Source: Alphaproteobacteria bacterium (lineage in GTDB: Bacteria; Pseudomonadota; Alphaproteobacteria; UBA7985; JAUIBT01). Taken from it: a stretch of DNA of 39,323 bases. The notes beneath the pieces were generated by a model. The model saw nothing but the letters and a program-made list of their open reading frames with translations. It was not told the DNA's origin and ran no database searches. The stretch's first letter is position 1. Each line of letters starts with the position of its first letter. Shown in pieces: positions 2,943 through 39,323 of the stretch. Location of the stretch: positions 1 through 39,323 of the forward strand of contig JAUIDR010000031.1 in assembly GCA_030428565.1 (NCBI GenBank), given 5' to 3'. Made by a program: the position numbers and the translations under genes.

Positions 2943-3851
2943 CTAGAGTTTTTCGATTTGGGGTAGGTTCATGTTGGCCTTGCGCGCCAACTCGACCATA
3001 GACTTTTGCAGCTTCTCGAAGGCCCGCGCTTCGATCTGGCGGACACGCTCGCGCGAGATGTCATAGACCTGGCTGAGCTCTTCGAGTGTCTTAGGCTCAT
3101 CGACGAGCCGTCGCTCGGTCAGGATATGCTGTTCACGCTCATTGAGCTTGCCCATGGCTTCAACCAACAACGCACGGCGCTTCGATAATTCGTCTTCTTC
3201 GACGACAATAGATTCTTGTGTCTGTTGATCTTGGTCGACCAGCCAGTCTTGCCACTCGCCATCGCCATCAATGCGCATGGGCGCGTTGAGCGACTGGTCG
3301 CCACCGCCAGCCATACGCCGATCCATGTTAATGACTTCTTGTTCATCCACATCCAAATCGGTCGCGATTTTCTTGATGTTCTCGGGCGACATATCGCCTT
3401 CGTCCAGCGCTTGCAGCTTGCCCTTCATGCGGCGCAGGTTGAAGAACAGCTTCTTTTGCGCAGCGGTGGTGCCGATCTTGACCAACGACCAGGACCGCAA
3501 AATGTATTCTTGGATCGACGCCTTAATCCACCACATGGCATAGGTCGCCAGCCTGAAACCTTTGTCCGGGTCAAAGCGCTTGACCGCCTGCATCATGCCG
3601 ACATTGCCTTCAGAAATCAGCTCAGCGACCGGCAGGCCGTAGCCGCGGTAGCCCATGGCGATTTTGGCCACAAGGCGTAGGTGGCTGGTGACAAGCTGGG
3701 CTGCTGCATCGCGGTCGCCCTGGTCCTGCCACTTCTTGGCGAGCTGGAACTCTTGATCGGCTTCAAGCATGGGAAACTTGCGAATTTCGGACAGATAGCG
3801 CGAAAGATTGCTCTCTGCATCCAAAGCCGGAATGACGGCAAGGTTCGACAT
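2943..3851 (-). CDS. rpoH: RNA polymerase heat-shock sigma factor RpoH (sigma-32)
   Basis: A 302-residue group 3-type sigma-70 family protein. Region 2 holds the core-binding and -10 recognition segment with FRLATYAMWWIKASIQEY (about residues 99-116). The RpoH box QKKLFFNLR at 132-140 is diagnostic for sigma-32 and separates it from RpoD. Region 4.2 near the C-terminus contains the DISRERVRQIEARAFEKL helix-turn-helix. I chose MSNLAVIPAL at 3851 because AGGAGG lies just upstream; an ATG seven codons earlier would leave that site inside the gene. The protein directs transcription of chaperone and protease genes. Two candidate promoters lie upstream. The length is normal for the family. Confidence 0.96.
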   Translation of the reverse strand: MSNLAVIPALDAESNLSRYLSEIRKFPMLEADQEFQLAKKWQDQGDRDAAAQLVTSHLRLVAKIAMGYRGYGLPVAELISEGNVGMMQAVKRFDPDKGFRLATYAMWWIKASIQEYILRSWSLVKIGTTAAQKKLFFNLRRMKGKLQALDEGDMSPENIKKIATDLDVDEQEVINMDRRMAGGGDQSLNAPMRIDGDGEWQDWLVDQDQQTQESIVVEEDELSKRRALLVEAMGKLNEREQHILTERRLVDEPKTLEELSQVYDISRERVRQIEARAFEKLQKSMVELARKANMNLPQIEKL

Positions 3852-30853: not shown

Positions 30854-31966
30854 CTAGCGTTCACTGACGTTGCGGTCGTAGTCCAAGCGCTTGGCGTACT
30901 CCATGGTCAGCAACTGCTGGAGCAACAATGCCTCGTTGTCGACCCCGATCGGCGCTCCGCCTTGTACGCCACCGCTAGATCCGCTACCGCCAAAGACATA
31001 TTGCGGCACGTTCCGGCGAGCGAAGGCGTCCGCCCACATGCGCTGAATAGCCATTTCTGTATCTAACTTTTGCTGCAAGGCATTGTCTGATGCTAACCGG
31101 GCTTTGCGGGCATAGGCTTCCGCTTCGGCTGCCACGCGCAGGGACTCGGCATCAATTTTTGCTTTTTCTAGCAAGACTTGCGCTGTTTGTTGTTCGATCT
31201 CAGCCTGCTCCTTGAGCTTGTTAGCTTGCGTGATCGCCAATTGCTTTTCGGTCTCTGCGTTCGTGGTGCGCTCGATTTGCGTCACCCGTGCCTTGGCTTG
31301 GCGCTGTGCGACTTCGCGCTCGCCTTTTGCGATTGCCAGCAGGCGCTGTTCTTCTTCTTGGATGCGCTGCTCACGGGCAATGCCGCGCGCTGTGGCGGCG
31401 TCTTGCTTTTGCTGCATGCGCTCACGAAAGCGCTGGTTGGGCTGCACGTCGGTAACGCGGGCTGAAATAACCGAAATGCCAAATTTAGCAAAATTTTGAC
31501 TCTTGCGGATGGGCTGACCTTCGTCGCTCAGCAGTTTTTCGACCTTGAAAACGACCTGCTTGTCGTCGCCGAACTCCTGCTGGGTATCTAGCGAGGCATT
31601 TGCCGTTGCTCGTTGGATGCGGTTGGTGGTCTCGATGACTTCACGACGTTCGACCAGGTAGACCCCGTTTTCCATTTGGTTTTGGAATTCGCTGGTGAAT
31701 TCTGTGCGCCCACCCGAAAAATACTCTTCGGCGCCCATCAGCGAGGCGGTCGCGCCCAGCGTTTCGCGGAAGGCGGGGACCAGCTCGGTGCGCAGCAAAT
31801 TGTCAGGTGAGCGGAATTGTCGGGCCATGCGCAAGAAGGATGCCTGATCATTGGGCAGCTCAAAGCGGGCCGTGGCAGAGACCAAGGCATCAACTTGGTC
31901 CAAGAAGACTAGGGATTGCTGGCCAAGATTGGCGGACATCTGGCTGGAGTCAAACTCGGCGCGCAA
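30854..31966 (-). pseudogene. SPFH/Band 7 protein, C-terminal part (separated from its N-terminus by an in-frame TAG)
   Basis: The 370-codon frame holds an SPFH (stomatin/prohibitin) domain in its first half and a long charged coiled coil (about residues 190-310) rich in Ala, Glu, Lys and Gln. It ends in a Gly-rich segment and a short tail. It is in the same frame as the fragment at 31997-32272 and connects to it by ten codons after the stop TAG at 31997-31999, giving one protein of about 472 residues. The first usable start here is a TTG at 31966 (next ATG 31939), neither with a ribosome binding site, and a product from there would lack the membrane anchor. The coding sequence is otherwise intact, which suggests a recent mutation or a sequencing error. 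SPFH proteins form membrane-associated rings. Confidence 0.7.
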
Positions 31967-31996: not shown

Positions 31997-32272
31997 CTAC
32001 ATGGCATTCTTCCACGCATTGATTCGCCCAAACCAGTGGGGCGCGTAGCCGACGGTATCGACCATCTTCTCTTCACCAAAGATGGTGCGAACGTGGTATT
32101 TAAAACCGGGCTCGGCATAAAAGAATACGGAGTTGAAGCTGCTGGCGGCCAGTAACGCCAGACCTAGCAGCGCGCCCAAAGCGCGGACCAGCGTGGGAGC
32201 AAAGGGGCTGCGATGCGCCATGGTGAGCGCGGCCAGCAAAACGACGATGCCAACGATTGCAAGAGCGAGCAT
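31997..32272 (-). pseudogene. SPFH/Band 7 protein, N-terminal part ending at an in-frame TAG
   Basis: The 91 codons begin at an ATG with a strong GGAGG six bases upstream, so this is the real translation start of the SPFH gene. It contains two hydrophobic segments (about 2-18 and 29-44) and the start of the SPFH domain (FYAEPGFKYHVRTIFGEEK). The stop TAG at 31997-31999 follows WKNAM and is followed in the same frame by VQAAAGLSDDLRAEF, which continues the domain. TAG is used as a normal stop by at least seven genes in this window, so recoding is not expected. As read, the ribosome would make only a short membrane peptide. Confidence 0.7.
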
Positions 32273-32471
32273 GAAGACCTCCAGGCGTGCTTAAGGTATT
32301 AATGCCCTATGATAGGGCGAACCGTCGGCTTTGGCTGTATTTGTCGATCCTGTTCGCCACTTCGCAAGACGGGTTCGCAACCTGCACGCTAAGTTCCTTC
32401 CAAAATCAGCGATAAGAGGCAAATCGCGTGCCCGGACCTCCCACTTGGTTTAAAAGCGGGTGGAGTCGCGC

Positions 32472-39009: not shown

Positions 39010-39228
39010 CAACTGATCGCTTTCAGAAACCAATGCGCCAAGGCGCACCGGTGGCATGACGGCAAAGCTTTTGCGATGCCAGGCCGCGCTTTGGCTTGCA
39101 TTTGCTGCGTTGCGCCTGGCATAGAAGAACGTAAGTTCCGGGTACGTGTGCGATACCGCGATGGCCACGCTGTTAATTGGGACAGCTGTAGCCTAATACT
39201 ACAGTTGCATTTTATGGCGTGTTTTGCG
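39010..39228. other. Gene-free stretch after ssb
   Basis: About 220 bases without a supported gene; the minus-strand frames here look like random open frames. It holds the inverted repeat at 39076-39122 and the hairpin at 39186-39204. Confidence 0.45.
39076..39122. repeat. Inverted repeat downstream of ssb
   Basis: ATGCCAGGC (39076-39084) and GCCTGGCAT (39114-39122) are perfect complements around a 29-base loop. No T run follows. It could form a long hairpin in the ssb 3' region; a clear terminator was not found. A second hairpin, CTGTAG/CTACAG, lies at 39186-39204 and is followed by TTGCATTTT. Confidence 0.5.
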
Positions 39229-39323
39229 ATGAGCAATGGCGGCGGCGACTTGATGCTCGCGTCGCCATCGCGACCAGTCCCATATGAAGGTGGCGGTGAG
39301 TATGGGGCGCGGCAGAAGGCGCG
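39229..39323 (+). CDS. Possible partial gene cut by the right window edge
   Basis: From the ATG at 39229 a plus-strand frame stays open for 31 codons to the edge and begins MSNGGGDLMLASPSRPVPYE. No convincing ribosome binding site precedes it. I recognise no family. In many alphaproteobacteria gyrA follows ssb, but this N-terminus does not look like GyrA. The evidence is weak because the open length is short. Confidence 0.3.
   Translation, partial: MSNGGGDLMLASPSRPVPYEGGGEYGARQKA

Follow-up and report, generated by a model that had tools for sequence, protein, structure and literature searches.

The window, that is, the whole stretch of DNA that was analyzed (39,323 nucleotides), comes from a draft alphaproteobacterial genome of 3.52 Mb in 114 contigs, with a completeness of 99.2% and an estimated contamination of 0. 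The neighborhood is ordinary chromosome and includes the nuo operon, a type III pantothenate kinase, RNase J, a class II tRNA synthetase, and a LolCDE-like ABC transporter, which is followed by an SPFH (Band_7) membrane protein gene and then by uvrA and an ssb gene. The SPFH gene lies on the minus strand (32272 to 30854) and, on translation, comprises 472 codons plus the stop, running from an ATG (32272 to 32270) to a normal terminator that is likewise TAG (30856 to 30854). A GGAGG ribosome-binding site (32278 to 32282, minus strand) is located five bases 5' of the ATG. The frame is interrupted by a single in-frame TAG at codon 92 (31999 to 31997, minus strand) and is open on either side of it, giving 91 residues, the TAG, and 380 residues (91 + 1 + 380 = 472). 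Codons 1 to 91 (32272 to 32000) encode two hydrophobic segments, visible by inspection within the first 50 residues, and the start of the homologous region, and codons 93 to 472 (31996 to 30857) encode most of the Band_7 domain (profile positions 37 to 174) and a charged C-terminal region. The initial annotation had described an otherwise intact SPFH gene split by this TAG, with a strong ribosome-binding site and membrane segments in the start fragment; translation and alignments of congeneric frames through the stop bear out the split, the GGAGG motif and the two hydrophobic segments agree with the rest, and its counts of 91, 380, and 472 codons were all reproduced on retranslation.

The read-through frame matches Band_7 (PF01145) with 52.5 bits, and the post-stop part alone does so with 50.3 bits (cutoff, 23.6 in both cases); the matched part starts at profile position 37 and lies wholly past the stop. 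The read-through protein also aligns over nearly its full length with phrog_11908 (residues 36 to 469, E = 2.8e-72), whereas searches of NCBIfam and the PDB gave no named equivalogue and no sequence match, respectively. An N-terminal membrane anchor fused to the SPFH domain is usual, though not universal, in this family. The gene resembles its Band_7 and phrog_11908 relatives in the above-cutoff domain match and the N-terminal hydrophobic segments, but its frame is broken at codon 92, such that anchor and SPFH domain are split in this assembly and joined in the congeners.

The two sides of the TAG are one gene and not a chance abutment, because congeneric frames run through the stop, codon-usage scores are alike before and after it (0.17 and 0.18), and the first NTG start past it, a TTG at 31966, comes ten codons later and is not conserved, being CTG in one congener. 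Two congeners, both alphaproteobacterial metagenome-assembled genomes, each carry one intact orthologue, 94% and 88 to 89% identical to the read-through protein, and their frames align by tblastn across the stop over 474/481 and 467/482 residues. Outside the genus, homologues in Pseudomonas megaplasmids and in Alishewanella, Pseudomonas, and Sinorhizobium phages (35 to 42% identical), together with one in a 97-kb viral contig (52% identical), are likewise single frames. The two open reading frames should be annotated as a single SPFH gene interrupted by a private in-frame stop, and neither as two genes nor as evidence of recoding.

Codon 92 is TCG (Ser) in both congeners, Thr or Ser in the plasmid and phage homologues (ACG, ACA, TCC, ACT), Thr in the viral contig homologue, and Asp in two distant Persicobacter proteins. 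None of these relatives has a stop at this position, nor was another assembly of the species found. The TAG is hence confined to this assembly, and a single C-to-A change on the coding strand separates it from the TCG of the congeners. Of the three ancestral codons proposed in the initial annotation (CAG, TCG, and TGG), only TCG occurs in the relatives. The same annotation had left a fresh mutation, a sequencing error, and readthrough as three options and had suggested comparing the codon in relatives; with sense codons in every relative examined, the three can be ranked, and conserved readthrough finds no support.

The gene has been under strong purifying selection on both sides of the stop. 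Relative to the congener G001, dN/dS is 0.028 for codons 1 to 91 and 0.029 for codons 93 to the end, with synonymous sites near saturation. When changes after the stop were polarized with G001, this branch had 4 nonsynonymous and 70 synonymous codon changes, and the sister branch had 8 and 68, respectively. Selection has thus been equally strong before and after the stop, at a dN/dS of about 0.03 or less, and the relaxation past the stop that would be expected only of an old pseudogene is not seen. Since a release from selection lasting beyond a small part of the branch would be expected to leave many more amino acid changes, the stop would appear to be either very young or not real.

We consider it probable, although by no means assured, that the TAG is a very recent single nonsense mutation in the chromosomal, accessory SPFH gene of the assembled lineage or strain. 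The genus-wide serine codon 92 would have become TAG by a single substitution, release factor 1 would end translation after 91 residues, and what is made would be a short membrane stub lacking most of the SPFH domain, while the post-stop part would be left largely untranslated. No other, intact copy of the interrupted gene was found in the genome; four further SPFH genes are present, all of them intact, and owing to these the loss may be tolerated, or else the lesion may be a transient polymorphism. A stop within a gene that is intact in its relatives, as here, is one mark of a nonsense pseudogene, and the lone in-frame stop, the intact remainder, and the absence of the stop from close relatives match nonsense or spurious pseudogenes described in bacterial genomes (PMC11017572; PMC7918605), with no distinctive difference here. 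A private stop of this sort is an ordinary finding.

The gene shows no decay beyond the single stop, which is equally consistent with an error. The TAG could be a miscalled base, or a base of a minority strain that became fixed in the consensus, while the living population retains an intact gene; we regard this as a serious possibility, if a rather less likely one. It would account for one substitution in a strongly selected and otherwise undamaged gene, the assembly is a draft in 114 pieces, and published work traces many pseudogenes with internal stops in public genomes to assembly errors linked to sequencing platform and low coverage (PMC11017572). On the other hand, contamination is estimated at 0 and completeness at 99.2%, and tblastn of congener frames, read by eye, found no frameshift or other internal stop in the window genes that have congener homologues; the remaining stops reported fall at the ends of genes or in shadow frames on the antisense strand. 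In a census by codon-usage scan covering 335 kb of this genome, eight in-frame stops had coding signal on either side. In six of these cases a start follows no more than nine codons later, and they are taken to be ordinary adjacent genes, leaving only two stops that are flanked by strong coding signal and lack a plausible new start nearby. Both sit in apparently dispensable genes and neither in a core gene such as those of the nuo operon, which also speaks against an error. Extrapolation from two per 335 kb gives approximately 20 per genome (Poisson range, roughly 3 to 75), a rate that fits ordinary pseudogenes but also a modest frequency of consensus errors. The second of these stops is a TGA at G000:C73:40889 (L094:889, L106:2390, minus strand) inside a 455-codon accessory gene, which is absent from both congeners; the TAG is thus not the only lesion of its type in this genome, a point in favor of the mutation.

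Functional readthrough, in which the TAG is decoded part of the time to yield a short and a long form, seems highly unlikely. An in-frame TAG followed by a conserved frame is what programmed readthrough or amber suppression would look like, constraint appears equal on both sides of it, and one survey makes the case that readthrough occurs at many in-frame stops of bacterial genes (PMC7918605). However, programmed readthrough would place a stop at the same codon in relatives, and here no relative examined shares it; the low dN/dS cannot be used as evidence of readthrough, because nearly all of the measured divergence is older than the stop. The RNA after the stop likewise has no unusually stable structure compared with shuffled sequences (z = 0.28 and -0.62), and a structured readthrough element was rejected on this ground. 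The decoding apparatus also argues against it. Among the 139 long frames (350 codons or more) of the 335-kb sample, TAG is the commonest terminator (65, against 43 for TAA and 31 for TGA), and prfA, encoding release factor 1, is present above its cutoff; TAG is thus neither avoided as a terminator nor deprived of its release factor. No tRNA with a CUA anticodon was among the 32 tRNAs recovered, an incomplete list with only one tRNA-Ser, so that a serine suppressor may have been missed. A pattern scan for the CUA anticodon arm hit three places, of which one falls within tRNA-Arg(TCT) and the others are no tRNAs. Stop usage (65/139), the intact release factor 1, and the tRNA search together led us to reject TAG recoding, and the earlier argument against it, that TAG ends other genes here, holds. 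TAG leads among the terminators although most of the sampled stretches of this genome have a G+C content of 57 to 60%.

A narrower form of the idea, a species-specific leaky TAG that arose after the split from the sister species and yields a short membrane-anchored form plus rare full-length SPFH protein, strikes us as scarcely credible. Least credible is a pair of genes, one for a membrane peptide of 91 residues and one for a soluble SPFH protein restarted at the TTG ten codons past the stop: such an in-frame TTG exists, but no clear ribosome-binding site is seen by inspection ahead of it, its codon is not kept as a start in one congener, and all relatives have one fused protein.

The closest SPFH homologues outside the genus reside in Pseudomonas megaplasmids (approximately 0.9 to 1.2 Mb), in phages of approximately 140 to 207 kb, and in the 97-kb viral contig (stretches L030, L031, L032, L033, L034, L035, and L108), and a search of 58 other alphaproteobacterial genomes gave no match. 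Taken together, these two observations suggest gene exchange with large phages or megaplasmids. A wider search of the order and class, a first pass that may miss distant sequences, added no more orthologues. A minor biological point is that this SPFH subfamily occurs as a chromosomal gene in one alphaproteobacterial genus and is also present on Pseudomonas megaplasmids and in large phages.

In plasmid pBASL58 of Pseudomonas sp. Leaf58, the SPFH gene (L034:2917-4263) has its annotated start at 3190, but the frame that matches its homologues is already open at 2917; the annotation therefore probably begins too far downstream and omits the membrane anchor. In the window itself, the last 130 bases (39193 to 39323) are a repeat that is 95 to 99% identical to contig ends elsewhere in this genome and in the congener G001, whereas the genes around it are only about 80% identical between the species. 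The repeat probably represents the end of an element that was mobile until recently and at which the assembly breaks.
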